A DNA stretch of 25,660 bases. It comes from Nitrospirae bacterium CG2_30_53_67 (GTDB lineage Bacteria > CG2-30-53-67). Position 1 is the first letter of the stretch, and each line of letters begins with the position of its first letter. This document shows positions 9,961 through 25,660 of this stretch, in pieces. The stretch spans positions 1-25,660 of the forward strand of contig MNYV01000086.1 of NCBI GenBank assembly GCA_001873285.1. Direction: 5' to 3'. Made by a program: the position numbers and the translations under genes. The notes under the pieces were generated by a model that saw only the letters and a list, made by a program, of their open reading frames with translations, was not told where the DNA came from and ran no database searches.

Positions 9961-9977
9961 TCCTGTGAGGCATATTG

Positions 9978-10052: not shown

Positions 10053-10072
10053 ATCCATGATGAAAGGGAACC

Positions 10073-12406
10073 ATGAAAGCTATTGATTCATCGCAGTATG
10101 AACTCGATCTGAGAGACTACGGCATCATTCTTCTGAAAAGGAAGCGTCTGATCATCATGACCACCTTCCTGATCAGCTTCTTGAGCTTTCTGTTCGCCTT
10201 CTCAAAAGAGGCTATTTATGAGTCTACTTCCAGTGTGAAGATCGAGCAGAGCAAAACCGTCGCCGGTCTTTTTCTGGAGGCCTTCAGCTGGAACTCCTGG
10301 GACAATATTGCCACTGAGTCCGAGGTCATCCGGAGCACACCGGTTGTGGTCAGGGTCTGCAAATCCCTCGGATTGATCCCGCAGGAGATCTCCTACGATG
10401 AGATCAAGGAATCCGGCAAGTATTCCGGCATCGTCAGGGGGATCCAGGGAAAGATCCGAACCGCGCAGGAAGGGAACACCAACATCATCAATATCATCGT
10501 CTCTTCCAACGATCCGGTCCAGGTCAAGACCATCGCCAACAGGGTTGCCGAGCAATACAAGGTTTATCATGTCTATGCAAAGACCAATGAGGCGCGCAGG
10601 ACCCGGGAATTTATCGAGAATCAACTGATAGAGACTCAGAAGGTTCTCTCCAATTCGGAAAAGAAGCTTCAAGACTTCAAGGAAAAACACAAGTTCATTA
10701 CCCTCGACGCCGAGGTGAATGCGACTCTGAACAGCCTCCAGGCCGCGCAGACGGAACATGAACAGGTCAAACGTCAGGCGCAGGAAACAGACATGATGAT
10801 CAAACGCCTGGAAGGAACGCAGATTTCAGCCCTGGACCAGGTCCTTTCGGAACGTCCTTATGTCGAGTCGGCCGCATCCGTTCTCGGCCAGTTGAACAGC
10901 AAGCTGGTTGAGCTGATCCTCAGCAGGAACAACCTTTTGATTGATTACACCTCGGAGCACCCGCAGGTCAAGGACGTCGACGAGAAGATCATGGATATCA
11001 GAAGGGAGATGCTCAAGGAACTGAAGAGCCAGTATGCAGTCTATAACGACAGGGAAAAGACCCTTCAGGACCAGATATCGGGTATCATTGAAAAGAACAA
11101 GAACCTCCCCGAATACGAAGTTCAGTTAAGTCAGATCCAGAGAGACGTTCATGTCAATGAGGAACTCTTCTCCCTCCTGAAGACCAAATATCAGGAGGCG
11201 CAGATCCGGGAGAAGGAACAGGCCGATGAGGTTTCGGTGATCCGGGCGGCGGACCTGGGGACCCGTATGAATGACAAGCTCTGGTCAACCACTTTCGTGG
11301 GGTTGATCATCGGCCTGATGCTGGGCCTGATCATCGCCCTGGTCCGGGAAACCCTCGATACCTCCATCGGGACCATTGAGGACGTGGAGAGGTATCTCCA
11401 GATTCCCGTCCTGGGCGTCATTCCCCATATCGACATGTATGAGATCAAGGAGGTCGTCTCCCAGAACGACGAGAAGGATGCCAAGTTTGAGGATCTGCTT
11501 GGGAGTCATGCCCATCTCATCACCCAGCTCAAACCCAAGTCCTCTGTAGCGGAGAGCTACCGGACCTTGAGGACCAATATCCAGTTTACCAACCTGAAAA
11601 AAACAGGGCAGATCATCCTGTTTACGAGCTCCTCTTTAAAGGAAGGGAAGAGCACGACGGTAGCCAATCTGGCGATCACCAAGGCGCAGGAGGGGAACAA
11701 GGTGCTCCTGGTCAACTGCGATCTCCGTAAACCTTCCATCTACAAGATCTTCGGATTGGAGAAAGAGGTCGGCTTGACCGATATTATCCTCGGGAAGATC
11801 CCATGGAAGGATGCCGTCAAGGACATCACCGATCTCATGATGGGCAAGATCCGGATGGACGATATCATGAAGACCCCGGGTCTGGAAAACCTGCACGTCA
11901 TTACGGCCGGGGGGATACCGCCCAATCCGGCGGAGCTTTTGAGTTCAAAGGGAATGAGCGACTTCATGGAGGAGATTCGGAAAGAGTATGATATGATCAT
12001 CATGGACTGCCCGCCTCTCCTCCCCGTGACCGATGCGGCGATATTAGCTCCAAAAGTGGACGGGGTGGTCCTGGTCTATCAGGCCGGAAGGATACCGAGG
12101 AATGCCCTCAAACGGGCCAAGACGCACCTGGAGAATGTCCGGGCCAATATCCTCGGTATTGTTCTGAATGATATAACGGCTGAGATCAGCGGATATTATC
12201 CGATGTCTCAATATCAAACCAAATACTATGGTGAAGATACCGGGCGTGATCATGGCAGGAAGAAAGAATGGATGGCCCTGCTGGAGAAGTCTATTCAGAA
12301 GGCAAAAAGCCGGATCATGAAGACCCATGTCTCCATGTTTCAATTTTTTGTCCTGGCCCTTTCAGCAATATTGATTCTGGTCGGGTTCTTTTGGCAAAAG
12401 AAATAA
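10073..12406 (+). CDS. Chain-length determinant/BY-kinase (Wzz plus tyrosine autokinase)
   Basis: 777 residues. A Wzz domain (from about 10, LRDYGIILLKRKRL, membrane helix about 27-44) is followed by long coiled coils in the periplasmic part (about 165-385) and a second membrane helix (about 404-424). The cytoplasmic BY-kinase has Walker A SSSLKEGKST (519-528), Walker A' VLLVNCDLRKP (544-554) and Walker B MIIMDCPPL (about 642-650). A tyrosine cluster (YYPMSQYQTKYY, about 708-719) is the likely autophosphorylation site. Two oddities stand out: an insertion with GKIRMDDIMKTPG before the LHVITAGGIPPNPAELL motif, and a third hydrophobic segment at the extreme C-terminus (about 750-773). The prolines usual just before TM2 in Wzz proteins are lacking (AADLGTRMNDKLW). 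It controls polymer length with the preceding Wza-like gene. AAGGGAA precedes the ATG. Confidence 0.93.
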   Translation: MKAIDSSQYELDLRDYGIILLKRKRLIIMTTFLISFLSFLFAFSKEAIYESTSSVKIEQSKTVAGLFLEAFSWNSWDNIATESEVIRSTPVVVRVCKSLGLIPQEISYDEIKESGKYSGIVRGIQGKIRTAQEGNTNIINIIVSSNDPVQVKTIANRVAEQYKVYHVYAKTNEARRTREFIENQLIETQKVLSNSEKKLQDFKEKHKFITLDAEVNATLNSLQAAQTEHEQVKRQAQETDMMIKRLEGTQISALDQVLSERPYVESAASVLGQLNSKLVELILSRNNLLIDYTSEHPQVKDVDEKIMDIRREMLKELKSQYAVYNDREKTLQDQISGIIEKNKNLPEYEVQLSQIQRDVHVNEELFSLLKTKYQEAQIREKEQADEVSVIRAADLGTRMNDKLWSTTFVGLIIGLMLGLIIALVRETLDTSIGTIEDVERYLQIPVLGVIPHIDMYEIKEVVSQNDEKDAKFEDLLGSHAHLITQLKPKSSVAESYRTLRTNIQFTNLKKTGQIILFTSSSLKEGKSTTVANLAITKAQEGNKVLLVNCDLRKPSIYKIFGLEKEVGLTDIILGKIPWKDAVKDITDLMMGKIRMDDIMKTPGLENLHVITAGGIPPNPAELLSSKGMSDFMEEIRKEYDMIIMDCPPLLPVTDAAILAPKVDGVVLVYQAGRIPRNALKRAKTHLENVRANILGIVLNDITAEISGYYPMSQYQTKYYGEDTGRDHGRKKEWMALLEKSIQKAKSRIMKTHVSMFQFFVLALSAILILVGFFWQKK

Positions 12407-12464
12407 ACTCCATTTATTGATCTCCACTGGATTCAACCGACCTGACCTCTCTTGTGGGCTCGAT

Positions 12465-13829
12465 ATGATTGCAACCGACCGGACCAAAATTCATATTTTT
12501 TACATCATTCTGCTCTCCATGGCCGTGCTAACCACCCATTTCCTGACCCAACTGACCACAGGGACCTCCCTCAAGGTTGCGGCGGGATGCCTGATCCTGG
12601 TGGTTTCCATACTGAGAACCGAGGCGGCCCTCTACATCCTGATTCTTTCCATGCTTTTGTCGCCTGAAATCAAGGTTGCCGGCGGCGCTGGACGGGATGT
12701 AGTCCTGAGGGTGGATGATATTCTCCTGGTGATTATCGGCTTGTCCTGGCTTGCCAAGACAGCCCTCTTCAAAGAGATGGGGATATTCAGGAAGACTCCG
12801 ATCAACCGTCCGATCCTGATCTATGCCGTGGTCTGCGCATTCTCCACCATTCTGGGCGTTCTCTTTGACCGAGTCAGGCCTGCGGACGGTTTTTTCTATG
12901 TCCTGAAATATCTGGAATATTTCGTGGTTTATTTTCTCGTCGTCAATCAACTCCGCGGCGGCGAGCAGATCCGGAGATTTGTCTGGGCGATTTTGATCAC
13001 AGGAGTTCTGATATCCATTTATGGGATGATGCAGATTCCTTCGGGCGTCCGGGTTTCCGCTCCCTTTGAAGGGATCAACGGGGAACCCAACACCATGGGA
13101 GGGTATCTATTGCTGCTGATCTCGATAGTTTCAGGATTTTTTCTGACGGCAAAAACCCAGAAAACCAAGGTGATTTATATGGGGCTGGCCGTATTCTTTA
13201 CGATTCCTTTTATCTATACCCTATCCAGGACCTCCTGGATTGCCGTGATCCCCATGGTCATGACTCTGATCTATTTCAGTTACCGGAAGACCGTGTTGAT
13301 CTATTTCGTCATTCTGGCCGTTGCCCTGACCCCCATTTTTGCCCCGAAGAGCGCAAAAGAGCGTTTTTTATATACCTTTCAGAAACACCATACGAAATCC
13401 ATCGTCGTGGCCGGGGTCACCCTTGACCCCTCTTCCTCGGATCGAATTACAAGCTGGGGGAGATGCCTCAATGATTTTGTCCATCACCCGGTCTTGGGAT
13501 ACGGAATCACCGGGTATGGATTCATTGACGGCCAGTACTTCAGGACCCTGGTGGAACTGGGTTTGGCCGGTCTGGTTTCATTGTGGTACTTGATGTTTGT
13601 CGTCTTCCGGGAGATCTTAAAAGTCTATCGGGTTTGTACCCGGCCCTATGACAAGGGGCTGGCCCTGGGCATGCTGGCCGGGTGTTCAGCCATGTTTATG
13701 CACTCTTTAGGGGCCAATACGTTTATTATTGTACGGATTATGGAACCCTTTTGGTTTCTCGTGGGTATGGTCCTCATTCTGCCCAGACTGCGGATGGCGG
13801 CTTGCGACGACGAGGAAGCAGGGTCTTGA
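12465..13829 (+). CDS. O-antigen ligase/polymerase family membrane protein (Wzy/WaaL-like)
   Basis: About 454 residues, almost all hydrophobic, with some 10-12 predicted membrane helices. The Wzy_C-type region has GEPNTMGGYLLLLISIVSG, LSRTSWIAVIPMVM and a large loop with HPVLGYGITGYGFIDGQYFRTLVELGLAG, in which the Arg and His resemble positions important in WaaL and Wzy enzymes. It probably polymerises repeat units on the periplasmic face or ligates the chain to an acceptor; sequence alone does not separate these. The longest frame begins at a TTG at 12417 with no ribosome site; I prefer the ATG at 12465, which precedes the first helix, though its ribosome site is weak as well. It fits between the chain-length kinase and the tailoring genes. 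Confidence 0.85.
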   Translation: MIATDRTKIHIFYIILLSMAVLTTHFLTQLTTGTSLKVAAGCLILVVSILRTEAALYILILSMLLSPEIKVAGGAGRDVVLRVDDILLVIIGLSWLAKTALFKEMGIFRKTPINRPILIYAVVCAFSTILGVLFDRVRPADGFFYVLKYLEYFVVYFLVVNQLRGGEQIRRFVWAILITGVLISIYGMMQIPSGVRVSAPFEGINGEPNTMGGYLLLLISIVSGFFLTAKTQKTKVIYMGLAVFFTIPFIYTLSRTSWIAVIPMVMTLIYFSYRKTVLIYFVILAVALTPIFAPKSAKERFLYTFQKHHTKSIVVAGVTLDPSSSDRITSWGRCLNDFVHHPVLGYGITGYGFIDGQYFRTLVELGLAGLVSLWYLMFVVFREILKVYRVCTRPYDKGLALGMLAGCSAMFMHSLGANTFIIVRIMEPFWFLVGMVLILPRLRMAACDDEEAGS

Positions 13830-13847
13830 TTTCATCATGAGGAAGGT

Positions 13848-15557
13848 ATGATCGTATTGGGAATTTGGGGCTACTCCGCAGACAGTCCGGCTCAGGCACA
13901 CGACAGCGGCGCTGCCGTGATTCGAGACGGCGAAGTGCTGGCGGCGGTTTCTGAAGAGCGCTTGACGAGAAAAAAGTGCGAAGGCTCCTTCCCTGTTCTT
14001 TCCATAGCGGAAGTTCTTAGGATATCAAATCTTTCGACAAAGGAAATCAACGCCGTGGCTTTGGCGGGCTTGCCGCCCTTCGGCCGCGCCGGGAAAATGC
14101 TCAAATACATCTATAAGACGTACAGAGACACCGGGATTCTCATGTCGAACAGGATCCTCTACGCCCTGCTGACGGCAAAAAAGATCCGGAGGACTCTCCC
14201 GGATCTGTTGAACGGGATCACCGTTTATGAGATTGACCACCATGAGGCTCATGCGGCGAGCGCCTACTACACCTGTCCATGGAGCGAGGCCGCCGTCATT
14301 ACCCTGGACGGCATCGGCGATTCAGCCGTTTGCGGGACCATCGGCGTGGGGAAAAACGGCAGTCTGGTTAAGCTTCGTGAATTCAACGGCTATTATTCGC
14401 CGGGAATTCTCTATTCGTTCATCACCCAGTACTTCGGATTCAAGCCGTCACGGCATGAAGGGAAGATTACGGGGTTGGCGGCTTACGGCGATTCGAAGAA
14501 GTGTTTCGAACGGTTCCGTACGATCAATCGATATGACGCAGACCGCCATGAATTCTTTTCCGATTATATCCCGTGCCTTTTTAAAGCGAAAAGCTACGAT
14601 GACTGGAGGATCCCGCTTGTAGACGAGATGCTTGAGGAGGTGGAAAAGGCGGATGTTGCGGCGGCCTTGCAGGAGCTTACAGAACAGAATGTCACGGCCA
14701 TGGTGAGAGACGCCGTCAACATGACCGGGATTCGAAACGTCGCGCTGGCCGGAGGTCTATTCGGGAACGTGAAGGTCAATCAAAGGATTCGAGAACTGGA
14801 TTGCGTGGAGGGGGTATACGTCCAGCCCGCCATGTCGGATACCGGATTGGCTTTGGGAGCGGCTTTGAAAGTCTGGGCAACGGCGGCTCTGAAAAAGGGG
14901 GGCCGGCCCCTTCCCGTTTTTTTGCGAAATGTTTACCTGGGACCGGAATATACGGACGGGGAGGTTCGGAGGGCGATCGAGAAGTATCAGCTTCCTTATC
15001 GGCGTGTGGAGCATCCTGCAAGTTTCACGGCGAAGATGTTAAAAGAGAAGAAGATTGTGGGATACTTCTCGGGAAGGATGGAGTACGGCCCCCGTGCGCT
15101 GGGGAACCGATCCATCCTGGCGGATCCGACAGATCGCTCCATTAACGACTGGTTAAATGAGCGCTTGAAGAGAACGGAGTTCATGCCCTTTGCGCCCAGT
15201 ATTCTGGAAGAGGATGCGGGCCGCTTTTATCCGGATTGGTCGCCTACGGACGTGCCGGGTCGTTTCATGACCATGACCTATGACGTTGATGCGCAGGGAG
15301 TTTCCCTGGCGCCGGCGGTGTCGCATATCGACCATACGGCACGGCCGCAGGTGGTGCGTAAAGAAGACAATCCGACCTATCATTCGTTGATTTCAGAGTT
15401 CAAGAAATTGACCGGACTGCCCTTGGTGATCAATACGAGCTTCAATATACACGAAGAACCGATTGTCTGCTCCCCGGAGGATGCCATCCGCTCCTTTCTC
15501 AATGGAAGTGTCGATGTCCTTGTCTTGGGCCATCACGTTGTAGAGAGCCGGTTGTGA
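13848..15557 (+). CDS. NodU/TobZ-family carbamoyltransferase
   Basis: This 569-residue protein has the two-domain layout of O-carbamoyltransferases that move carbamoyl from carbamoyl phosphate, via carbamoyl-adenylate, to a sugar hydroxyl. The N-terminal Kae1-like domain starts MIVLGIWGYSADSPAQAHDSGAAVI and includes SEERLTRKK, the metal-binding HHEAHAASAYY, and NVKVNQRIRE. The C-terminal domain has GRMEYGPRALGNRSILADP and LPLVINTSFNIHEEPIVCSPEDAI, all standard. Length and motifs are intact. GAGGAAGGT sits before the ATG. It overlaps nothing and is followed by the flippase gene after one base, so it likely decorates the repeat unit before flipping. Confidence 0.93.
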   Translation: MIVLGIWGYSADSPAQAHDSGAAVIRDGEVLAAVSEERLTRKKCEGSFPVLSIAEVLRISNLSTKEINAVALAGLPPFGRAGKMLKYIYKTYRDTGILMSNRILYALLTAKKIRRTLPDLLNGITVYEIDHHEAHAASAYYTCPWSEAAVITLDGIGDSAVCGTIGVGKNGSLVKLREFNGYYSPGILYSFITQYFGFKPSRHEGKITGLAAYGDSKKCFERFRTINRYDADRHEFFSDYIPCLFKAKSYDDWRIPLVDEMLEEVEKADVAAALQELTEQNVTAMVRDAVNMTGIRNVALAGGLFGNVKVNQRIRELDCVEGVYVQPAMSDTGLALGAALKVWATAALKKGGRPLPVFLRNVYLGPEYTDGEVRRAIEKYQLPYRRVEHPASFTAKMLKEKKIVGYFSGRMEYGPRALGNRSILADPTDRSINDWLNERLKRTEFMPFAPSILEEDAGRFYPDWSPTDVPGRFMTMTYDVDAQGVSLAPAVSHIDHTARPQVVRKEDNPTYHSLISEFKKLTGLPLVINTSFNIHEEPIVCSPEDAIRSFLNGSVDVLVLGHHVVESRL

Positions 15558-15558
15558 T

Positions 15559-16989
15559 ATGGGAACCATCACACGTGTCGCGAAGAATACCTCACTCGTT
15601 TCCACCGAGATTATTCTTGTCAACCTTCTTTCCTTTGGCTTCGCGGTCTACGTAACCCGTGCACTGGGCGTGATGGAGTTTGGGAAATTCGCCTTTGCCA
15701 AGGCCTTTATGGAAATGCTTGTCGTATGGGCGGATCTGGGTCTGGCCAAACTTCTTATACGGGAAGTCGCAAGAAACAGGGAGGACATATCGTCTTATCT
15801 TCCGGATTTTGCAGCGATCAAACTCCTCTTTTCCATTCTAACGGTTGCCATGATCGCTTTGCTCATGCGTATTCTGGGTTACGAACCAGAGGTGATTCGG
15901 ATCGTCTATATTCTCGGAGGCGCTTATCTCGTTCATTCCTTCACGGGGATTCCTGTTTCCGTATTTCAAGGATATGAACGGATGGGACTCGGATCATCTC
16001 TTTCTGTTTTTCGAAGTCTGCTGCTCATATTATTTGGTGTGACGGTTCTGACCGGCGGCTATGGGCTTAAAGGATTGTGTTGGTCGATTTTTGCTGCGAA
16101 TGCGATCCACGCATTGTCGGCTTTCTTTTTCTTGCTGAATGGTTTTGCACGAATCAAGTTTTGTTTCCACCCGGCCGTATGGTGGAGCATTGCTAAAGAG
16201 AGTTTCTCTTTCGGCGTTGGGAGCGTTTTTGTACGGATTTATGCTCGCATTGATTCAGTCATGCTTTCAAAGATGATCGGCATGACCGTCGTGGGTTTGT
16301 ACAACGCTGCATACAATATTGTCATTGCCCTCATGTTCCTTCCCGGCGCATTGAGTCAGGCTTTGTTTCCCGTCACGTCAAGATACTTTGAAACGGATCC
16401 CGACAAGGCAAAGAATATTTTCGAACGCTCCTTTAAATATTCTGTTCTGATCGGATTTCCTGCGGCGACAGGCATCGCCTTCCTGTCGGATAAAATCATT
16501 CTGATGATGTACGGCACTTCCTTTAATGAGGCGGCTGCCGCGCTCCGAATCCTAATCTGGACTCTGGCCTTTTCCTTTGCTACGGCCATGCTGGGGAACC
16601 TTCTCAATTCAGCAAACCAACAGATACGTACGACCTATAATATGATGATCTGTACAGCCGTCAATATCGGGCTGAATCTGATTCTTATCCCCCTTTATGG
16701 TTTTCTGGGTGCAAGCGCCGCCACCGTATTAACGGATGTGAGCCTCGTTACCCTTAGTTACCTGTCCGTTCGGAAATATGTCTATGCTCCGCGTATTGCA
16801 ATGCCCCTTATAAAGGCTGTTCTCGGCAGTCTTGTAATGGGGGCTGCCTTATATTTCATCAGAGATGGAAGCCTATTTTTAAGCATTTCACTCGGTGCAT
16901 TGGTTTATGCTGTCATGCTTCTTATTGTCAAAGTCTTTGACCGCGAGGATTGGAATATCCTGCAGAAAATGCTTTTTGTGAAGTCATAG
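15559..16989 (+). CDS. Wzx-type oligosaccharide flippase (MOP superfamily)
   Basis: This 476-residue integral membrane protein has about 12-14 hydrophobic helices. It opens ITRVAKNTSLVSTEIILVNLL, has FAKAFMEMLVVWADLGLAKLLIREVAR, the pattern of polysaccharide_synt (PF01943) flippases, and a central IYARIDSVMLSKMIG. It should move lipid-linked repeat units from the cytoplasmic to the periplasmic face. Its base composition is visibly lower in GC than its neighbours: sampled 60-base lines give 26-29 GC, against 40 in a sampled line of the carbamoyltransferase gene. This suggests a separate origin for the gene or simply membrane-protein codon bias. The ATG comes one base after the previous stop. 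Confidence 0.9.
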   Translation: MGTITRVAKNTSLVSTEIILVNLLSFGFAVYVTRALGVMEFGKFAFAKAFMEMLVVWADLGLAKLLIREVARNREDISSYLPDFAAIKLLFSILTVAMIALLMRILGYEPEVIRIVYILGGAYLVHSFTGIPVSVFQGYERMGLGSSLSVFRSLLLILFGVTVLTGGYGLKGLCWSIFAANAIHALSAFFFLLNGFARIKFCFHPAVWWSIAKESFSFGVGSVFVRIYARIDSVMLSKMIGMTVVGLYNAAYNIVIALMFLPGALSQALFPVTSRYFETDPDKAKNIFERSFKYSVLIGFPAATGIAFLSDKIILMMYGTSFNEAAAALRILIWTLAFSFATAMLGNLLNSANQQIRTTYNMMICTAVNIGLNLILIPLYGFLGASAATVLTDVSLVTLSYLSVRKYVYAPRIAMPLIKAVLGSLVMGAALYFIRDGSLFLSISLGALVYAVMLLIVKVFDREDWNILQKMLFVKS

Positions 16990-17015
16990 TGGCCCAAGAG
17001 TGCGTTAGAGAGACT

Positions 17016-17654
17016 ATGAGTATCTGCCCATTGTGCAAGAAGGGGAGTATGATTCGGACCGAAGATTCCTTGAGGGAAGACAGGATCTGTCCGGCCTGCG
17101 GGCAGCGTTACGGGCCGCTTCGTCTTCAAGAGACCCTGCGGGGTCCCGGAGCGGCTGCGCAGATCCTTCGATGGCTGAAGAGGTTATGGACCTACCCGAT
17201 CTATTACCGGTTTCGGAAGAAGAATATCCATGTGGGCAAAGGCGTTTCCATCTCAAGAGGATTCAAGTTTCTATGGGGGAACATGATCGTAGGAGATGAC
17301 GTTGCGCTGCAAAACACGTTTTGTGATGACTCCGCTGCCGTGACGATCGGCGCCCGCAGTTTTTTCGGCCATGATGTGAAACTGCTGACTCCCTATCACG
17401 ACATGGAGTCGTTCGATCAGGACAGACGTCACGCCGTACGCTGCAAGCCCATTCATATCGGACGGGGCGTTTGGATTGCCTCCAGCGCGATCATCCTGGC
17501 CGGAGTGACCATCGGAGATGGAGCGGTCGTGGGCGCCGGGGCCGTGGTCACACGGGATGTCCCCGCCTTTACTTTCGTCGCTGGGAACCCGGCAAGAGTG
17601 ATCCGAACCCTTTTGAAGAAAGAAGCGGGAGAGATGATCGAGGAGAAAGCCTGA
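17016..17654 (+). CDS. Zinc-ribbon/left-handed beta-helix O-acetyltransferase
   Basis: About 212 residues. The C-terminal two thirds is a hexapeptide-repeat acyltransferase of the WcaF/MaaT type: VGKGVSISRGFKF, FFGHDVKLLTPYHD with the likely catalytic His, then IGRGVWIASSAIILAGVTIGDGAVVGAGAVVTRDVP and AGNPARVIR. It would acetylate a sugar using acetyl-CoA. The N-terminus adds a compact zinc-ribbon (C4xxC7 and C25xxC28, CPLC and CPAC), not usual in these enzymes. A basic aromatic segment (LKRLWTYPIYYRFRKKN) may touch the membrane. The ATG at 17016 has GAGAG upstream; an ATG at 16950 would overlap the flippase by 40 bases and precede the ribbon with unrelated residues, so I reject it. Confidence 0.85.
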   Translation: MSICPLCKKGSMIRTEDSLREDRICPACGQRYGPLRLQETLRGPGAAAQILRWLKRLWTYPIYYRFRKKNIHVGKGVSISRGFKFLWGNMIVGDDVALQNTFCDDSAAVTIGARSFFGHDVKLLTPYHDMESFDQDRRHAVRCKPIHIGRGVWIASSAIILAGVTIGDGAVVGAGAVVTRDVPAFTFVAGNPARVIRTLLKKEAGEMIEEKA

Positions 17655-17658
17655 ACCC

Positions 17659-18639
17659 ATGAAAATATTCCTTGTTGCAGTTCATTTCCATAGCTCCTTC
17701 GGCTGGTCCATTGAGCAGGCCCTCAAGCGATGCGGACATGAGGTGATCGTGTTCGATTACCGCAAGGACACGCGCCTGCGCGCTCCGCTTTTGAGCACCC
17801 TCTTTGTTCAGCGTATGAATCGCCTGTTGTCGGCTTTGGTGAAGGAGGTCAAGCCGGACTTGACCTTTGTGGCAAAGGGGGAACTGCTTTTTCCTGAAAC
17901 GGCAAAGAGGATTCGAGAGGTGACCGGCGCTCCGTTGATCAATTGGTTTCCGGATGCGCGGCCCATGGCCTTTGATAATGTCGCCCATGCGCTTTCTTGT
18001 TATGATTATTTCTTTACCAAGAACCCCTATTGGAACAAAAAACTTCGTGAAATCGGTTATCAGAATATTCATTTCCTGGCGCACTCCTATGATCCGGAAA
18101 TTCAGAAAAGGATGCCGCTGACGGAGCAGGAGAGACAAACCTTCGGATCGGAGGTCAGTTTTATAGGCACCATGTATCCGTACCGGCTAAAGGCCTTGGA
18201 GAGGGTTCAGGGGATGGATTTCAAAATATGGGGCCCAGGTTGGGAGAAGCTCCCTTGTGATCATCCTCTGCATGGCTCTTGCCAAAGATCCGGCATTATT
18301 CGCGGCATAGACCATAGCCGAGTGATCAATGCATCCCTGATCAACCTGAATCTTCACCACTATGATGACATTGATGGTCTGAACCAGCGGTTTTTTGATA
18401 TCGCGGGGTGCGGCGGTTTTCAACTGGTTGACGATCGGGCCGAAATCGGGCGCTATCTGACCCCCGGCAAAGAGGTCGTCTGTTATCGAGACGTGGAAGA
18501 GCTTTGTGAAAAAATCCGATATTACCTTGAGCGCCCGGATGAGCGTGAGGCGATTCGGGAGAACGGATTCAGGCGGATCCGGAAGGGGAATACGTATGAT
18601 GACCGGATCAAGGAAATCTTCTCTGTGATTCGGACTTGA
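17659..18639 (+). CDS. CgeB-like GT-B glycosyltransferase
   Basis: The 326-residue product starts MKIFLVAVHFHSSFGWSIEQALKRCGHEV and has the features of the CgeB/Glyco_trans_1_2 (spore-maturation-like) group: LINWFPDARP, YDYFFTKNPYWNKKLREIG, VSFIGTMYPYR, a C-terminal NQRFFDIAGCGGFQLVDDRAEI and a closing segment RYYLERPDEREAIRENGFRRI. These are putative sugar transferases of the GT-B fold with a reduced N-terminal domain. The substrate is unknown. It starts 4 bases after the acetyltransferase stop, with GAGAAAG as ribosome site, so it is in the same operon. Confidence 0.8.
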   Translation: MKIFLVAVHFHSSFGWSIEQALKRCGHEVIVFDYRKDTRLRAPLLSTLFVQRMNRLLSALVKEVKPDLTFVAKGELLFPETAKRIREVTGAPLINWFPDARPMAFDNVAHALSCYDYFFTKNPYWNKKLREIGYQNIHFLAHSYDPEIQKRMPLTEQERQTFGSEVSFIGTMYPYRLKALERVQGMDFKIWGPGWEKLPCDHPLHGSCQRSGIIRGIDHSRVINASLINLNLHHYDDIDGLNQRFFDIAGCGGFQLVDDRAEIGRYLTPGKEVVCYRDVEELCEKIRYYLERPDEREAIRENGFRRIRKGNTYDDRIKEIFSVIRT

Positions 18640-18740
18640 GCGGATCCCGTGACCCTGCCGTGTCTTTGGCCACAAACCGCCCTGCGCAGGGCCTCGAAAA
18701 GGGAAACAAGAAATGGCGCCGCTTCGACCGGGAGATTCAA

Positions 18741-19907
18741 ATGGCCCGCCTAAGAGTGCTTTTCGTAACTGTGGATTATCCTCCACTTATAGGAGGCATG
18801 TCTGAGCATGCCTATGGGATCGTGAAGGGTCTTCGGGATCAGGGAGAGGAGGTCTTTGTGCTGGCTCCCCGCCCGGACGGCGCTTTGAGAGGAGATTCGA
18901 TTCGCTCTGAAGAAAGGATTTATCGCTATCCTTTGTTGAATTCACCCATTTTGCGAATCCTCGTTCTCAGCTATTTCATTTTAATGCTTCTTCTCCGGCA
19001 CAGGATTCGGGTGGTTCTGAACAATACCTGGTCTCCCTGCGGCATATCCACTTATCTGGTTTCTCGTCTATTGCGAATCCATTACTTTATCCATGCACAC
19101 GGACTGGATGTGCTTGAGCCCCGGAGAAGCGCGTTTTGGAGGAGTTGGATGATACGGGTGATGCGTCATTCCGATCGGATCTTGCCCGTGAGCCGGTTTA
19201 CGGCTGAGAAGATACTCAGGCTGGGAATCCCCAAAGAAGCGGTGACGATCCTGAGCAACGGGATTGACCCCGCTCGGTGGCTCGAGTCAAAAAAATCTTC
19301 CGGCCTGCTGCAACGAGATTCTCTCCAAGGGAAGAGGATCATTTTGAGCGTCTCAAGACTGGTGAAGAGAAAGGGGCATGATCTGATTCTGCGGGCCGTG
19401 GAGAGGCTGTCCGGAGAATTTCCTGACCTGGTCTACCTGATCGTCGGGGATGGTCCGGAAAGGGAACGGCTTGAGTCCCTGGCAAAGGGGCTTCATTTAG
19501 ACGGGCGGGTGATTTTTACGGGTTATGTGAAAAGTGAAGATCTCCCGGCCATCTATTCTGCCTGTGATCTATTTGTGCTGACGCCTGCCGAGATCCGGGA
19601 TCAAGGGGATGTCGAAGGATTCGGGATCGTCTTTCTTGAGGCGGGCATCATGGGCAAGGCGGTCATCGGTTCCCGTTCCGGAGGCATTGAGGATGCCGTG
19701 GCGCACGAGCAGACAGGGCTTCTCATTCCGTCGGGAGATCAGGACGCTCTGGAACAAGCGCTTCGAACCCTGTTGCATGAGAGGGCATACTGCAGTCAAC
19801 TGGGGCAAAATGGAAAGGAGCGCGTTTTGAAGGATTATACATGGAGCCGGGTTGCCGCTCATCTCAGGACGATTATCTCTTGCCATGCCGGCCAAAGAGG
19901 TAAATAG
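18741..19907 (+). CDS. GT4-family glycosyltransferase
   Basis: About 388 residues with a GT-B fold. The N-terminal half begins MARLRVLFVTVDYPPLIGGMSEHAYGIVKGL. The C-terminal half has ILSVSRLVKRKGHDLILRAV, LIVGDGPERERLESLA, VIFTGYVKSEDLPAIYSACDLFVL and the EGFGIVFLE (E-x7-E) sugar-nucleotide-binding motif, then SGGIEDAV. It adds one sugar to the lipid-linked unit, donor unknown. The frame is open upstream to a TTG at 18636, but GGGAG at 18730-18734 gives a good site before the ATG at 18741, and the N-terminal strand begins there. The 101 bases 18640-18740 therefore carry no gene that I can support. Confidence 0.9.
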   Translation: MARLRVLFVTVDYPPLIGGMSEHAYGIVKGLRDQGEEVFVLAPRPDGALRGDSIRSEERIYRYPLLNSPILRILVLSYFILMLLLRHRIRVVLNNTWSPCGISTYLVSRLLRIHYFIHAHGLDVLEPRRSAFWRSWMIRVMRHSDRILPVSRFTAEKILRLGIPKEAVTILSNGIDPARWLESKKSSGLLQRDSLQGKRIILSVSRLVKRKGHDLILRAVERLSGEFPDLVYLIVGDGPERERLESLAKGLHLDGRVIFTGYVKSEDLPAIYSACDLFVLTPAEIRDQGDVEGFGIVFLEAGIMGKAVIGSRSGGIEDAVAHEQTGLLIPSGDQDALEQALRTLLHERAYCSQLGQNGKERVLKDYTWSRVAAHLRTIISCHAGQRGK

Positions 19908-19923
19908 GGATCGAGGGTTTTGC

Positions 19924-21036
19924 ATGCCGGGGAATGTCGTGAAGAAGAACGTCCTTTTCATAGAAAACACATCCGATCTGATCGGAGGCGGCCAACAGAG
20001 TCTTCTGAATCTGCTGCGCTTCCTCGACCGGGATCGATTTTCTCCGATGGTCGTATTCCCTTGTGACGGGCCGTTTGCGGAGAGGATTCTGACCTTGGGA
20101 ATCCCTGTTTTCTTTAGTGATATGAACACCCTGAAAACGCTCAATGTTCTTCGTTTGGCACAAAGTGTTCGGAGTCTCATCCGTATCCTGCGCAGCCGGA
20201 AGATTGATCTTGTGCACACCAACGCATCCAGGACCACATGGTATGCAGGGCTGGCCTGCAGAATGGCGGGGGTATCGCTGGTTTGGCATGTCAGAATCGC
20301 GATGCGGGAGTCGTTCTATGATGCGCTGCTGTACCTTCTATCTGACAGGGTGATAGCCATTTCCAATGCCGTGGCGCGCCGGTTCCCGTACCCGAACTCC
20401 CGGAAGAAGGTCTCCGTCATTTACAACGGCATTGATCCGGATGAATTCCACCTCGTAGATGCGTCGCCATTCCGGAGAAGATTTAAATTGGACGATAAAT
20501 TCGTGATCGGCGTTGTCGGACAGATCCATCCCCTGAAAGGCCAGGTTTATGTCATACGGGCGCTCAAACAATTATCAGCGTCATTTCCCCATCTTCACTG
20601 TCTGATCGTAGGATCTCCCACCGCTTACCAGAGAGAGTTGGAGCGCATGGTTACAGACCTTGGATTGGAAACCTCTGTCACCTTTACAGGATGGCAGCAG
20701 GATGTTCGGGAGGTCATGTCGGCCCTGGACATTCTTGCGGTTCCTTCTCATACCGAAGGCTTCGGGCGGGTCTTGATTGAGGCGATGGCGTGTGAGCGGC
20801 CGGTGGTGGCATTTGCCGTTGATGCCGTTCCGGAGATTATCGAATCGGGAGAGTCGGGATTGCTCGTGCCAAAGGGAGATTTGGCCGGTCTGGTTACGGC
20901 CATTCGAGCCTTGATTGAAAACAGGGATTTGAGGCAACGAATAGCAAGGAATGGAAAAGAGCGGGTGCGCCGGCTTTTCGACATTCGGGAGAATGTCAGG
21001 AGGACGCAGCAGGTTTATGATCTATGTAAAGTGTAA
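19924..21036 (+). CDS. GT4-family glycosyltransferase
   Basis: About 370 residues. It starts MPGNVVKKNVLFIENTSDLIGGGQQSLLNLL, with the Gly-rich loop of GT4 enzymes. It continues with LVHTNASRTTWYAGLACRMAGVSLVWHVR, YNGIDPDEFH, VGQIHPLKGQVYVIRAL, VTFTGWQQDVREVMSALDILAVPS and the E-x7-E motif EGFGRVLIE, then DAVPEIIESG. It is a second distinct retaining glycosyltransferase in the operon. Upstream in-frame starts (TTG 19852, ATG 19885) overlap the previous gene and lack ribosome sites, while GAGG lies 9 bases before the ATG at 19924. The 3' end overlaps the methyltransferase start by 20 bases. Confidence 0.9.
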   Translation: MPGNVVKKNVLFIENTSDLIGGGQQSLLNLLRFLDRDRFSPMVVFPCDGPFAERILTLGIPVFFSDMNTLKTLNVLRLAQSVRSLIRILRSRKIDLVHTNASRTTWYAGLACRMAGVSLVWHVRIAMRESFYDALLYLLSDRVIAISNAVARRFPYPNSRKKVSVIYNGIDPDEFHLVDASPFRRRFKLDDKFVIGVVGQIHPLKGQVYVIRALKQLSASFPHLHCLIVGSPTAYQRELERMVTDLGLETSVTFTGWQQDVREVMSALDILAVPSHTEGFGRVLIEAMACERPVVAFAVDAVPEIIESGESGLLVPKGDLAGLVTAIRALIENRDLRQRIARNGKERVRRLFDIRENVRRTQQVYDLCKV

Positions 21037-21862
21037 TCACTGCGGTCACGATGATACAAGGCTGGTCCAGCAGGTTGACGATACCTATCGGGTCGTTCAG
21101 TGCCGTAGCTGTGGTTTGGTCTATACGAACCCCATCCCCGACCTTCACTCTCTTTGCGACCATTACGGTGAAAACTATTACCGTGATTGGATCGAGAAGC
21201 AATCGCGCGCCAGAGAAAGGATGTGGAGAAAAAGGATCAGGGAGGTGATGAGACATAAACAGGGCGGCCGGTTACTGGACGTGGGCTGCGGTCTCGAAAC
21301 GTTCTTGATGCTGGCGAAAGGGCAGGGATTTCAGGTCCAGGGCACGGAGGTATCCTCTTTTATCACGTCTCAAGGGCGTGAAGACGAACCTCCGGATATA
21401 TTTCGAGGGGAACTTCCGGAAGCTCAATTCCCGGATAAGCGCTTTGACGTCATCACCCTGTGGCACAGTTTGGAGCACATGCCGGATCCAAAGAGGAACC
21501 TGATGGAAGTCCATCGCATCATGAAAGACGACGGGTTATTGGTGATTGCCGTGCCCAACCTGAAAAACTATTTTACGCGGTTTTTTTACCGCCTTTACAA
21601 GAGAAAAAAGTTCTCCCTGTTTGATCCCGGGGCCAAGGAACTTCACCTGTTTCATTTTACGCCGATCAGCTTGCCCGCCATGCTGCATTCCGTCGGATTT
21701 TGCGTGGAGCAGTTGCGGCTGGATTTGTCCGCCGTGGTATTCCAGCGGAAAATCATCGACTGGATCAGCGGACTCGTCTATGCCGCGACCCGCGCCAACT
21801 TTGCCGATGGATTTAAAATATTTGCAAGGAAGTCCGGTCACACCGCACAAAAAGCCCAATGA
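21017..21862 (+). CDS. Zinc-ribbon SAM-dependent methyltransferase
   Basis: About 281 residues. An N-terminal zinc-ribbon (CNHCGHDD... then VVQCRSCGLVYTNPIP, two CxxC pairs) precedes a class I methyltransferase domain of the Methyltransf_23 group: LLDVGCGLETFLMLAKGQGF (motif I, slightly altered from VGCGxGxFL), FDVITLWHSLEHMPDP (motif II with the His common in this group), and LKDDGLLVIAVPN-like text. Such proteins usually methylate a sugar or other small group in polysaccharide or natural-product clusters. The start at 21017 overlaps the preceding glycosyltransferase end by 20 bases; an upstream ATG at 20951 reads unrelated antisense-like sequence. The stop TGA forms ATGA with the start of a mini-ORF. 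Confidence 0.87.
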   Translation: MIYVKCNHCGHDDTRLVQQVDDTYRVVQCRSCGLVYTNPIPDLHSLCDHYGENYYRDWIEKQSRARERMWRKRIREVMRHKQGGRLLDVGCGLETFLMLAKGQGFQVQGTEVSSFITSQGREDEPPDIFRGELPEAQFPDKRFDVITLWHSLEHMPDPKRNLMEVHRIMKDDGLLVIAVPNLKNYFTRFFYRLYKRKKFSLFDPGAKELHLFHFTPISLPAMLHSVGFCVEQLRLDLSAVVFQRKIIDWISGLVYAATRANFADGFKIFARKSGHTAQKAQ

Positions 21863-21909
21863 AAAAAACCAGGATGGGCTTGTATGTGAAGGGATGGCTT
21901 CGGGAATGA
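21859..21909 (+). CDS. 16-residue mini-ORF linking the methyltransferase and GT9 genes (coupling?)
   Basis: ATG at 21859 overlaps the methyltransferase stop as ATGA (21859-21862), and its own TGA (21907-21909) overlaps the ATG of the next gene at 21906 as ATGA. It encodes MKKTRMGLYVKGWLRE. Two ATGA junctions in a 51-base frame look like a relay for translational coupling rather than a functional peptide. It could be coincidence, since ATGA overlaps are common; homologue comparison would decide. Confidence 0.3.
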   Translation: MKKTRMGLYVKGWLRE

Positions 21910-23063
21910 AATCACTGCTTAAAACTCGTCAGGTTCTGAAACGTCTCTTCGTGTTCATGAGAACGGTTTTTCTTCTAAGCGCGGGGCGTTTTGTTGTTCC
22001 CAGGAAAAGGAGCGGGATTCCGTCAAAACCCGTCAAGATCCTTGTGATCTCCCAGACGCGCCTGGGAGATGCTGTGCTGTCCGTTCCCCTCCTGACGGTT
22101 CTTCACGACCGATTCCCCTCAGCGCAGATTCATGTGCTTGCAAATCGGTATATACGGGAAGTCTATGAGATGTGCCCGCACACCACCGGGATCATGGAGT
22201 TGGAGAGCGTTTTCGGGCCCTTGGACTGGGCGCATGACATCAGACGAATCCGAAGGGAGAAGTTCGATTGGGTTATAGATCTGAATACGGACGGATCTTT
22301 GATGCCGGCGGTTGCGGCCGGGTACTCAGCCGCGCCATGCAGAATCGGTTATGGACAGGATGGACGGCGTATCTTCTTTGACGCCGCGCTCCCTTTTCCC
22401 AAGGAAGGGCGGCATATGGTGGATCTGATTCTGGGTACTCTGGCGCCCCTCGGACTTTCCAGGGACCGGCCCGGTTTTGATCTGGTGATCCCTAAGGCGG
22501 AAGAGAGAGATACAGCCGCTATGCTGGAGCGGATCGGCGTGAAACGCGGCCGCCCGGTTGTCGGGATTCATCCCGGTGGAGTCCATCCAACCCAGCGCTG
22601 GCCTGCGGAGAATTTTGCTGATCTTTCCGACCTTATCCTCCGAAGCGGAGAAGCTCAGGTTCTCTTGCTTGGAGGGCCGAAGGATCAGATTCTGCTTTCG
22701 GAAATCGTCAACCGGATGCAAGGCGCGCCGATTCAATTCCCTCCCGTGACCCGTATCAAAGGTCTTGCAGCGCTCTTGAACAATCTGAATCTGTTGGTGT
22801 GTAATAATTCCGGCCCTCTTCATTTGGCCTCGGCTCTTTCTATCCCGACGATTTCATTTATGGGGCCCACGCGGGCCGAACAGTGGCGGCCTGTAGGAGA
22901 AGGGAATACAGTCCTCCGAAGGGATGACCTCGATTGTATCGGGTGTAATATGGGAATATGTCCGGTTAAAACGCATGCATGCATGTACGGAATCTCGCCG
23001 ACAGAGGTATTTGAGACCATCCGGAATCGTCTGGCGCAAGACTCCAAGATCTTGTCTTCATAA
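21906..23063 (+). CDS. GT9 heptosyltransferase-like glycosyltransferase
   Basis: About 385 residues, typical for ADP-heptose:LPS heptosyltransferase relatives. The N-terminal motif is KILVISQTRLGDAVLSVPLL, the GT9 signature; the donor-binding half has VVGIHPGGVHPTQRWPAENFADL, VLLLGGPKDQILLSEIV, LLVCNNSGPLHLASAL and ISFMGPTRAEQWRPVGEG. A C-terminal cluster of Cys (CIGCNMGICPVKTHAC) may bind metal. I start at the ATG at 21906, with AAGGGATGG 8 bases upstream; 21894 is an alternative 4 codons longer. It is the last gene of the plus-strand operon and its 3' end overlaps the nucleotidyltransferase relic on the other strand by about 19 bases. The substrate is unknown. Confidence 0.9.
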   Translation: MKSLLKTRQVLKRLFVFMRTVFLLSAGRFVVPRKRSGIPSKPVKILVISQTRLGDAVLSVPLLTVLHDRFPSAQIHVLANRYIREVYEMCPHTTGIMELESVFGPLDWAHDIRRIRREKFDWVIDLNTDGSLMPAVAAGYSAAPCRIGYGQDGRRIFFDAALPFPKEGRHMVDLILGTLAPLGLSRDRPGFDLVIPKAEERDTAAMLERIGVKRGRPVVGIHPGGVHPTQRWPAENFADLSDLILRSGEAQVLLLGGPKDQILLSEIVNRMQGAPIQFPPVTRIKGLAALLNNLNLLVCNNSGPLHLASALSIPTISFMGPTRAEQWRPVGEGNTVLRRDDLDCIGCNMGICPVKTHACMYGISPTEVFETIRNRLAQDSKILSS

Positions 23064-23282: not shown

Positions 23283-23564
23283 TCAATCGGAGGAAAGCAC
23301 CAGAAGTTTTTTCTCAACGAGGTCCCGGATCAGGTCCAGGGCCTGTTTCCGGATAACGGCCGGGTCTCCCTCAAACTCCTGAGGAAGAAGAGAGAGGATT
23401 TCTCCCAACGGCACGTCTTCATTGCAGAGATCCCAGATCCGGGCGCCGGTCTCGTTCAAGAGGTAAGGTTCCCCGTTTTCTTCATCAAACAGGACGGTAT
23501 TCCCGTCCTCTTCTCTCCAGAGCACGTTGGATGGGATGCTCGGTTTGCGATGGTCCGTTGTCAT
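23283..23564 (-). CDS. PqqD-like RiPP leader-recognition protein
   Basis: 93 residues. The PqqD signature is clear: GNTVLFDEENGEPYLLNETGARIWDLC, then EILSLLPQEF and a C-terminal helix QALDLIRDLVEKKLLVL. PqqD-family proteins bind the leader of a precursor peptide and deliver it to a radical SAM maturase (RiPP recognition element). It has a ribosome site AGGGTGA before ATG 23564 and lies 26 bases after the precursor-like gene, so it is probably co-transcribed with it. The neighbouring radical SAM protein has no N-terminal recognition domain of its own, which fits a separate PqqD partner. Confidence 0.88.
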   Translation of the reverse strand: MTTDHRKPSIPSNVLWREEDGNTVLFDEENGEPYLLNETGARIWDLCNEDVPLGEILSLLPQEFEGDPAVIRKQALDLIRDLVEKKLLVLSSD

Positions 23565-23590: not shown

Positions 23591-23770
23591 TTAACTGAAT
23601 ACTGTGTTCTTGGTGGACTGACTGCAAGAGACCGAGCCTGTCGGGATATTATTCTTGCCGCAGACGATTCCCCGTTCGAGGCCCGTGGTGCAGAAATAGT
23701 TTCCCACACCTTGAACCGAGATGGATGTGAGTTCGGGTTTTATCCATGGTTTTTTCGGTTTTGTTGCCAT
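23591..23770 (-). CDS. Putative RiPP precursor peptide, 59 residues
   Basis: The ATG at 23770-23768 has AAGGAG at 23779-23784, overlapping the stop of the radical SAM gene, and TAA at 23593-23591. The peptide opens MATKPKKPWIKPELTSISVQ and continues GVGNYFCTTG..., with Cys27, Cys37 and Cys49 and a Ser/Thr-rich tail ending VFS. The basic leader with W9-x-x-P12-x-L14 resembles the leader motif YxxPxL that recognition elements bind in lasso peptide systems. The core would be the C-terminal 30-38 residues, with three Cys spaced 10 and 12 apart and no transmembrane segment. Position between the maturase and the PqqD gene, a strong ribosome site and a Cys-bearing core support a modified-peptide precursor. 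I do not recognise a named family. Confidence 0.78.
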   Translation of the reverse strand: MATKPKKPWIKPELTSISVQGVGNYFCTTGLERGIVCGKNNIPTGSVSCSQSTKNTVFS

Positions 23771-23778
23771 ATTTTATA

Positions 23779-23784
23779 CTCCTT
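23779..23784 (-). promoter_or_regulatory. Ribosome binding site of the precursor peptide gene
   Basis: AAGGAG on the minus strand, 8 nt before ATG 23770. Its first bases are shared with the TAA stop of the radical SAM gene (23785-23783). The strength of this site suggests the peptide is made in larger amounts than the enzymes around it. Confidence 0.8.
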
Positions 23785-24790
23785 ACTTTGTTTGAGAAAG
23801 CCTTACACAGGGGGCATATTCCCCCCAGACATCGTCGGTGCGGAGATAGGCCTCGGCCCTGCAGCCGCCTTTACATTCATGCAGGGATTCACAGCCGCGG
23901 CACCGGCCGTGAAGGTTTTCCACCTGCAGGAACTGGGCATAAAGCGGGATCTGCTCCCAGGCCCCCTGTATCCCGTATTCCAGGACATTGTTTGAGAGCC
24001 CCCAGACGTGGGCCGGGGTGCAGGGGGTCATGTTCCCGTCCGGCATGATCAGGCAGGTGGAGGCGGTTTCGCTCCCCACGGTGCAGGTGCTGGGCCTTCC
24101 GATCTCATTAAAGAAGAGGGTATGGTTCCTGAAAGAAACCTTCACGCCCATCTCATTCAATGACCGGATACTGTCCATGGCCTCACGAAGTTCTTTTTCA
24201 AGGGGCCGTAAGGATTCGTAATTCAAAAAGCCGCGGCCTGTCGGTGTCATCTCGGAGGCATTGATCAGGGAGGGTTCGAAGGGGAGAAGCTTATGGACCA
24301 GCCGGGAGAGGTCATGGATATTCTCCCGGGTGATGGTCACCTTGATATGCAGGTCAAGACCCGCATCGTGGATCCAGCCGAGGGCCTTGATGATCCGATC
24401 AAAGGCATGCCCACCCATGATGGCGTCGTTGATCTCCGGTCTGGAGCCGTGCAGGCTCACCTGAATCCGGTTCAGACCATAGTCTTTAAGGCCCTGAACC
24501 GTTGCCGGGTCCAGTAAAATTCCGTTGGTGGTCAGGACCGTGAAGATTCCGTTCTCGCGGAGACGTCCGACATAATCCAATGTTTCGGGGATCAGGAGGG
24601 GCTCCCCGCCGGTGAGGTAGACCTTCAGGACCCGGCATTGGATCAGGTCTTCGAGAATGAGGGCCCGTTTTTCGGCATCCAGTTCATGGTCTCGGATCTC
24701 GAGATCCGATTCGCTGAGGCAGAAATTGCACGCCATGTTGCACCGGTCCGTGAGACACCAGAAGACTTCAACGGGGGTTTTTAAGAGCAT
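23783..24790 (-). CDS. Radical SAM/SPASM peptide maturase
   Basis: 335 residues. The radical SAM motif is C17xxxC21xxC24 (CNMACNFC), with GGEP at 61-64 and a downstream TIM-barrel region (NRIQVSLHGS). The C-terminal SPASM domain fits the published pattern of C-x(9-15)-G-x4-C, gap, C-x2-C-x5-C-x3-C, gap, C: C236, G252, C257, C297, C300, C306, C310, C328. SPASM domains bind two auxiliary iron-sulphur clusters and act on peptides (PqqE, AlbA, anSME). The protein starts 3 bases after the kinase stop (TGACCCATG) and its stop overlaps the precursor's ribosome site. It probably installs a crosslink, epimerisation or thioether on the neighbouring 59-residue peptide. Confidence 0.93.
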   Translation of the reverse strand: MLLKTPVEVFWCLTDRCNMACNFCLSESDLEIRDHELDAEKRALILEDLIQCRVLKVYLTGGEPLLIPETLDYVGRLRENGIFTVLTTNGILLDPATVQGLKDYGLNRIQVSLHGSRPEINDAIMGGHAFDRIIKALGWIHDAGLDLHIKVTITRENIHDLSRLVHKLLPFEPSLINASEMTPTGRGFLNYESLRPLEKELREAMDSIRSLNEMGVKVSFRNHTLFFNEIGRPSTCTVGSETASTCLIMPDGNMTPCTPAHVWGLSNNVLEYGIQGAWEQIPLYAQFLQVENLHGRCRGCESLHECKGGCRAEAYLRTDDVWGEYAPCVRLSQTK

Positions 24791-24793
24791 GGG

Positions 24794-25660
24794 TCAGCCT
24801 GTCTTTAAAATGTCCAAAATGATGCCGGGCAAAACGGGAAAATCCCTTATAATATTATATTTTAACCGGGTTATGGCTATGCTGTCAATGATCGATTTTG
24901 AGACGTCAAAAGCGGCCCGGTTATGGCGGATCAGGTCTTCCCGGGCCGTATCCGGAGACTCCTGAATCTTGGCTGCTTCCAGGGAGGCGAGCAGGGAGAA
25001 AAAGGCCTCAGCCTTATCCATTTTATCAGCATAAATGGATAAGTGGTTGATATTGTTGTCTAAAAATATCACTTTTTTTAATGGGGCACTTTCCGGAAAC
25101 GGTTCTCTAAGGTCGATCCGGAAAACTTCTTCATCCATGCTTTGCACCAAGGTCTTTTCATGGGCCATCAGGCCGAGTTCCGGATGGAGATTCATCACGT
25201 CCCGGGTGATCCGGATCCTGCGGGGGTAGGGAAGGATCTGGAACGACCCGTTGCTTTCCATACGGATGAAGCTGTCCTCTTCGGAGAGATAGCTGAATCC
25301 GTATTTCGTCAGGAGGCAGGAAAGGGAGGTCTTGCCTGAGTTGGTCTTGCCGAGGAGAAGGAGACCCCTCCCATCCTTGTAAAGGGATGCCCCGTGAAAC
25401 ACTGCCAGGTCTCCCATAAGAGAGAGTTCCAAGTGGACCAGGAAGCCGGTGACCCCGAAGAGGATGACCGCAACCGCATCCGCCGGGCACGAGCCGCTGA
25501 TATAGAGATGGACGGTCCGGTTAGGGATGTTCAGCACGGAGACGGTATCTTTGCGGATCCAGTGGATTTCGTCTCCGGGATCTCTCCGAAGCGTCTTGAG
25601 CGGTGTTTTGTCCTCATCGAGGTCTTGTTTTTGTGTCAGGGAGAGACGGATCCGGGGAGA
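24794..25660 (-). CDS. HPr kinase-like (HprK-related) protein, partial at right edge
   Basis: The frame is open from the right edge (25660) to the stop at 24794: 288 codons, with the true start outside. It has a P-loop GKTNSGKTS (bases 25325-25351), preceded by LAVFHGASLYKDGRGLLLL and followed by GFSYLSEEDSFIRM and ILPYPRRIRI. That order is typical of HprK-related kinases found beside PqqD proteins and radical SAM enzymes, not of true HprK of the sugar phosphotransferase system. In paeninodin biosynthesis such a kinase phosphorylates the C-terminal serine of the precursor, and the precursor here ends in Ser. A GTG at 25537 is possible as a start, but the upstream frame (RIRLSLTQKQDLDEDKTPLK) continues and looks coding. 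Confidence 0.8.
   Translation of the reverse strand, partial: SPRIRLSLTQKQDLDEDKTPLKTLRRDPGDEIHWIRKDTVSVLNIPNRTVHLYISGSCPADAVAVILFGVTGFLVHLELSLMGDLAVFHGASLYKDGRGLLLLGKTNSGKTSLSCLLTKYGFSYLSEEDSFIRMESNGSFQILPYPRRIRITRDVMNLHPELGLMAHEKTLVQSMDEEVFRIDLREPFPESAPLKKVIFLDNNINHLSIYADKMDKAEAFFSLLASLEAAKIQESPDTAREDLIRHNRAAFDVSKSIIDSIAITRLKYNIIRDFPVLPGIILDILKTG

Follow-up and report, generated by a model that had tools for sequence, protein, structure and literature searches.

A candidate RiPP precursor with a lasso-type leader and a cysteine core beside a radical-SAM/SPASM gene in an uncultured groundwater bacterium

What kind of product is encoded where a leader motif of the lasso type and a core with widely spaced cysteines meet in one small gene, next to a radical-SAM/SPASM enzyme? 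The window, that is, the whole stretch of 25,660 nucleotides analysed here (contig MNYV01000086.1 of Nitrospirae bacterium CG2_30_53_67, an uncultured groundwater bacterium), contains such a gene. Its frame, translated as MATKPKKPWIKPELTSISVQGVGNYFCTTGLERGIVCGKNNIPTGSVSCSQSTKNTVFS, lies exactly where the original prediction had placed it and has 59 residues, with W9, P12 and L14 of the leader and Cys27, Cys37 and Cys49 of the core as claimed. It had been called too short for usual gene calling, which does not hold, as an ORF finder with a 40-aa cut-off detects it. The gene is flanked on its own strand by the predicted SPASM gene upstream and a PqqD gene downstream:

7426..23063, (+): exopolysaccharide/capsule-type locus, from annotation of the window ORFs; the peptide cluster adjoins its end on the opposite strand
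23283..23564, (-): PqqD-type RiPP recognition element (RRE), 93 aa (PF05402, 3.4e-15)
23591..23770, (-): predicted precursor peptide gene, 59 aa, stop codon within the coordinates
23594..23599, (-): C-terminal Phe58-Ser59, predicted phosphorylation site
23624..23626, (-): Cys49, third core Cys
23660..23662, (-): Cys37, second core Cys
23690..23692, (-): Cys27, first core Cys
23729..23746, (-): predicted RRE-docking motif of the leader, W9-I-K-P12-E-L14
23779..23784, (-): AAGGAG ribosome-binding site of the precursor gene, 8 nt before the ATG
23783..24790, (-): radical-SAM/SPASM maturase, 335 aa (PF04055, 1.1e-27)
24794..25660, (-): predicted HprK/PEPCK-fold kinase, truncated on its 5' side where the contig stops

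Short length is the sole point in favour of a chance ORF or a degraded gene, a reading that is contradicted by the homologues and was rejected, its probability being negligible. A strong ribosome-binding site, sharing bases with the stop codon of the radical-SAM gene before it, precedes the frame, and the pattern [WY]xxPx[LIV] within the first 30 residues is found in the precursor only, among the 142 window ORFs of 40-90 aa in six frames. At the Cys frequency of the window, the chance of at least three Cys in 59 aa is about 0.03. A scan of genome contigs with the precursor alone gave no match, because the family is too divergent, and homologues were reached via the radical-SAM gene. In this way 13 precursors (window included) were found at the same place, each beside a homologous radical-SAM gene. 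Their dN/dS ranges from 0.09 to 0.47 in the four homologous pairs with computable dS (NG86), with one of these at 0.53 by YN00 and dS saturated in two further pairs; the values are below 1 wherever computable, so the frame is under purifying selection. For the radical-SAM and PqqD genes, the comparison of the window's own genome (G000) with G001 yields 0.19 and 0.09. The 59-aa ORF is almost certainly a RiPP precursor. No model of Pfam or NCBIfam matches it, and the family, which appears to be previously unnamed, is present in at least four bacterial phyla.

The 13 members are distributed amongst six genomes of the window's phylum (G000-G005), a Schekmanbacteria MAG (L020) and two further groups outside that phylum, one of two genomes (G049, G062) and one of four (G385, G259, G124 and G396, hereafter the f108 branch). 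Identity of the radical-SAM enzyme to that of the window is 86% in G001, 65% in G002, 63% in G004, 48% in L020 and 42% in G005, while G003 has a fragment. Most of the 70 radical-SAM loci encode other SPASM enzymes of 22-31% identity with no such precursor nearby, and the matches in G039 and G326 fall outside this family. An Elusimicrobia small ORF with three Cys and YxxPxI (L043:5018-5155, MKKKKKYSKPEIKSEKVFETAALACGKCQTGPTGQSACKSLKRYS), about 2 kb from a SPASM match, was not counted as a member either; it may represent a different precursor family of the RRE type. In G049 and G062, the precursors (L013:5614-5817, L093:1394-1603) carry an N-terminal MKRREFLEKGKK... extension before the leader motif, resembling a twin-arginine signal and unusual for a RiPP leader. 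In the G062 radical-SAM gene (L091; L093:358-1362), one TAA lies inside the matched stretch, yet a 334-aa ORF is listed there.

The alignment of homologues called for in the original prediction shows conservation across phyla, not the random change at the Cys and W-x-x-P-x-L positions that had been named as the contrary outcome. In the leader, W and P are invariant and the last position is L or I in 13/13, consistent with the lasso-type motif that had been recognised. In the core, three Cys are found in 11 of the 13 precursors and two in the others (G049, G062), and nine of the 11 three-Cys homologues have CX9C spacing between the first and second. The last residue is Ser in every precursor, the ending being FS in nine and GLS in the four of the f108 branch. 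Cys and this terminal Ser are the only core residues kept through all lineages; IGS/PIGS, NP and the terminal aromatic are partly conserved, and no acidic residue is. The invariant Ser, absent from the original prediction, is a second likely functional site.

How would such a leader be recognised? The motif [Y/W]xxPx[LVIFA] is that recognised by discrete lasso RREs, and WxxP is nearly invariant in paeninodin-like leaders (PMC13381572). The best NCBIfam model for the RRE of the window is lasso_PqqD_Bac (2.9e-9, below cut-off), and the closest solved relatives of a nine-member RRE profile are TbiB1 (3.5e-12), 9x90, which carries the name lasso PqqD chaperone, and TfuB1, followed by PqqD. By these comparisons, lasso B1 proteins appear to be nearer relatives of the RRE than PqqD is, and the RRE very probably docks at the WxxPx[LI] motif.

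The radical-SAM enzyme contains CX3CX2C (at residue 17 in the window) and a full seven-Cys SPASM signature, both present in all complete members. The closest solved enzymes are PqqE (1.4e-35), SkfB and 5wgg, the SCIFF maturase CteB. It scores below every NCBIfam equivalog cut-off listed; the best-scoring models are PqqE, MftC and AhbD, none of them a thioether-forming family. That PqqE, followed by the mycofactocin maturase, gives the best NCBIfam and PDB scores, and that the terminal FS is invariant in the nine precursors outside f108, would fit a redox-cofactor pathway like those of PQQ and mycofactocin, in which the C-terminal Phe-Ser is modified and cut off as a small end product and the Cys are structural. 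Such a pathway is very improbable here, since the curated cut-offs are missed by a wide margin (146 vs 381 bits), the clusters showed no sign of PqqB/C/F or Mft partners, the Cys keep their positions and the f108 precursors end in LS, not FS.

Several SPASM enzymes make carbon-carbon links. The enzyme might accordingly link non-Cys residues by carbon-carbon or other bonds, with the Cys forming disulfides or binding metal and the kinase modifying the peptide; the partial conservation of IGS/PIGS, NP and the terminal aromatic speaks for this. Against this stand the Cys themselves, which besides the terminal Ser alone persist through all lineages, and the fact that two-Cys and three-Cys cores are served by one enzyme family, so that this arrangement is considered quite unlikely. 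Action of the radical-SAM enzyme on the Cys core is the reading kept here, as a good likelihood. With three Cys spaced approximately CX9CX11C, and two or three Cys in the homologues, the core is unlike those of lasso peptides or SCIFF, as had been predicted; SCIFF has six Cys in forty-five residues, and the peptide is not a SCIFF by its Cys count.

The kinase gene, truncated in the window, was interpreted with the help of its homologue in G001, which has 331 aa and is 87% identical to the window's. The structural model of the latter homologue (pLDDT 84) matches PEPCK (Z 19.8, 280 residues) and HPr kinase 1ko7 (Foldseek E 3.7e-7), the best PDB sequence match of the kinase profile is Hpr(Ser) kinase, and HprK-related family models match weakly. 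From this model, the kinase is predicted to have the PEPCK/HprK fold. A His and GxTxxGKT with the P-loop Lys are conserved, a P-loop Gly being replaced by Asn in three members. Lasso kinases need a His-Lys-Asp-Asp catalytic motif (PMC9266682); the acidic pair is [DE]-E here and Asp-Asp in PadeK/ThcoK. The gene adjoins the cluster in G000, G001, G004, G005, G049 and L020 and is located elsewhere in the genome in G003. A PF14907 nucleotidyltransferase gene stands beside it in G001 and G004 and near the cluster in L020 and G049 (1.8e-51 in G001, 4e-48 in L020, 9.7e-41 in G049; in G004 by homology), while the window contig ends before this gene would be reached.

In lasso clusters with a kinase, the C-terminal Ser is conserved; it is phosphorylated by PadeK, ThcoK, SyanK and PsmK and decorated by PsmN (PMC9266682), whereas the related kinases BsfK and LppK modify core Ser3, not the last Ser. 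By analogy with PadeK, ThcoK and PsmK, the C-terminal Ser would probably be phosphorylated in the kinase-bearing branch. The f108 genomes have no recognisable kinase of this type, yet their precursors end in GLS, so the terminal Ser may have another role; either this role is older or the ending is coincidental. The f108 branch is the main weak point of the proposal, and its lack of a kinase weakens the phosphorylation step.

This branch also bears on a simpler alternative, a ranthipeptide/sactipeptide-type system that merely shares the lasso-like RRE motif, its kinase and nucleotidyltransferase not acting on the peptide. As the f108 cluster consists of RRE, radical-SAM enzyme and precursor alone, these three form the minimal system, and like SCIFF, PapB and SkfB it joins a SPASM maturase to a Cys-containing core. 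The window cluster differs from the ranthipeptides and sactipeptides in its separate lasso-like RRE, its kinase, the nucleotidyltransferase of its relatives and its Cys spacing. The alternative is judged unlikely: kinase and nucleotidyltransferase accompany the cluster in three unrelated lineages, also where the surroundings differ (G004 and G005 lie beside other genes than the window), the genes are closely packed and in G004 overlap, and in lasso and LPP (linear polyphosphorylated peptide) clusters these enzymes have peptides as substrates.

A candidate for leader removal is found in the relatives. A transglutaminase-like gene adjoins the precursor and PqqD genes in G002, G003, G004, G005 and L020, and its product has a conserved Cys-His-Asp. 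The best matches of this protein are PF13471 and lasso_biosyn_B2, weak and below cut-off; its profile has no close solved relative, and an AlphaFold model of it was set aside for its pLDDT of 48. In G000, the gene is located on contig C118, not in the window cluster. Because the C118 gene adjoins a CAAX-protease-like gene of the kind flanking the G004 cluster, the G000 cluster has apparently been split and moved. The protease was not found in the G001, G049, G062 and f108 genomes (E <= 0.001). Counting from the W at -15 of the paeninodin-type PbaA or the Y at -17 of BsfA, the predicted end of the leader falls at residue 23-25, immediately ahead of Cys27. The CAAX-type intramembrane protease gene beside the B2-like protease gene on C118 (L114:3510-4208, PF02517, 9.3e-18), a type also near the cluster in G004, may encode a second peptidase or an immunity factor.

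Among known systems, the paeninodin/pseudomycoidin lasso clusters (PadeA/K, ThcoK, SyanK, PsmK/PsmN) share the WxxPx[LI] leader, discrete RRE, HprK-type kinase, nucleotidyltransferase and C-terminal Ser and, in several relatives of the window, the B2-like Cys protease. The window family differs from them by its radical-SAM/SPASM enzyme and by a Cys core without a conserved acidic ring residue, the lasso ring being closed between the first core residue and an Asp or Glu near position 7-9. No lasso cyclase (the asparagine-synthetase-like C protein) was found among the window ORFs scanned with Pfam. In the L020, G001, G004, G005 and G049 clusters, kinase, nucleotidyltransferase, RRE, radical-SAM enzyme, precursor and protease account for the genes, again with no cyclase. 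Strictly speaking, the product does not count as a lasso peptide, as this enzyme is absent from the clusters that were read. LPP clusters likewise share the RRE, the HprK-type kinase, the NTP transferase, a [Y/W]xxP leader, the lack of a lasso cyclase and location in polysaccharide loci. Their leader is YxxPxVLxHQxIxFETxxS, their peptidase is a signal peptidase of the SpI-like kind, and the Ser they use is Ser3 (PMC13381572). The window family has WxxPx[LI] and not the rest of that leader, and no SpI-like leader peptidase was recognised among the cluster genes examined; by its different leader, it is not an LPP. The main text of that paper (PMC13381572) does not contain the word 'radical'.

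The SynChlorMet cassette (TIGR04248-04251) shares SPASM enzymes, a PqqD relative and ScmC, which is weakly similar to the kinase (5.4e-4). It has two SPASM enzymes (ScmE and ScmF) where the window cluster has one, and the window shows no match to a named precursor. ScmC, ScmD, ScmE and ScmF score 19, 23, 85 and 79 bits against cut-offs of 125, 100, 400 and 400, and the cluster is not SynChlorMet on these scores. The HPr-rel-A system (TIGR04352/TIGR04353) also joins an HprK-related kinase and a PqqD-type chaperone, with scores of 26 bits against a cut-off of 200 for the kinase and 26 against 35 for PqqD.

Both parts of the odd mixture first described, a lasso-type leader and a Cys core served by a SPASM enzyme, are borne out, and the picture is incomplete without the RRE closest to lasso B1 proteins, the HprK-type kinase and, in relatives, the PF14907 nucleotidyltransferase and B2-like protease. 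The reading that we favour, with moderate confidence, is that the precursor belongs to a RiPP family, as yet unnamed, which is made on a lasso chassis of the paeninodin type with the radical-SAM/SPASM enzyme in place of the macrolactam synthetase. Conserved leader motif, Cys core and invariant C-terminal Ser can be read directly from the sequences, together with genes for the RRE, the radical-SAM enzyme, the PEPCK/HprK-fold kinase and, in relatives, the nucleotidyltransferase and B2-like protease. The pathway would be RRE-dependent and work like a phosphorylated lasso pathway up to the core-forming step. The PqqD-type RRE would bind WxxPx[LI] and pass the peptide to its enzymes, and the radical-SAM enzyme would cross-link or otherwise oxidise the Cys core, most likely by thioether bonds that join the Cys sulfurs to carbons of the backbone or the side chains. 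The kinase would then phosphorylate the C-terminal Ser and the nucleotidyltransferase would add a nucleotide or sugar there, after which the transglutaminase-like Cys protease would remove the leader, cutting a few residues ahead of the first Cys. Finally, the product would be exported and act at or near the cell surface, where polysaccharide is made. That the Cys are modified, the Ser is phosphorylated, a nucleotidyl group or sugar is transferred and the leader is cleaved is proposed from the enzyme families and their published relatives. Taken whole, a single peptide whose Cys core is cross-linked by the radical-SAM enzyme and whose C-terminal Ser is (poly)phosphorylated and decorated with a nucleotidyl group or a sugar, made on a lasso RRE chassis without cyclase in several little-known phyla and yielding a cell-surface or polysaccharide-linked product, is put forward tentatively.

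The genomic surroundings are those of polysaccharide synthesis and export. The locus adjoining the peptide cluster encodes an FG-GAP/OmpA/SLBB export protein, a Wzz/Wzc-like protein, an O-antigen ligase, a carbamoyltransferase, a flippase, glycosyltransferases, a methyltransferase and a heptosyltransferase. In Schekmanbacteria, the genes directly after the cluster encode an export protein with FG-GAP and SLBB domains and a protein of the Wzz type, and genes of both types also occur in the window. In Bacilli, LPP and paeninodin clusters are often found in capsular loci (PMC13381572). A polysaccharide-related role of the peptide is doubtful, though conceivable. The export proteins (window 7426-9960 and L020:8937-11108) have N-terminal FG-GAP repeats fused to Poly_export/SLBB in two phyla, that of the window also including OmpA, and both are encoded near the peptide cluster.

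If the favoured reading is true, the lasso accessory module of RRE, kinase, nucleotidyltransferase and B2-like protease would be a portable chassis for different core-forming enzymes, hosting a lasso cyclase in paeninodin, none in LPP and a radical-SAM enzyme in the window family, and would help to explain how a RiPP class may originate by a swap of its class-defining enzyme. Precursor, RRE, radical-SAM enzyme, kinase and nucleotidyltransferase form a compact testable set for probing the purpose of the phosphorylated C-terminal Ser, whose role is described as unknown in the papers cited above. The set also bears on why such clusters occupy polysaccharide loci in Bacillota and in these candidate phyla. 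The literature covered, open access with few subscription journals, yielded no paper that links radical SAM to HprK kinases or to the YxxPxL motif. Three tiny ORFs of 48-56 aa in the Schekmanbacteria genome G063 (L128:4138-4284, L129:4738-4908, L131:6158-6307) each adjoin an HprK-like kinase gene, with PqqD, PF14907 or SPASM genes nearby. They possess a YxKP[RL] motif and a common Cys-free tail, YTxxxLxxxFxxLxG, and by these features appear to represent a second precursor family, one that lacks Cys, on a chassis of this kind.
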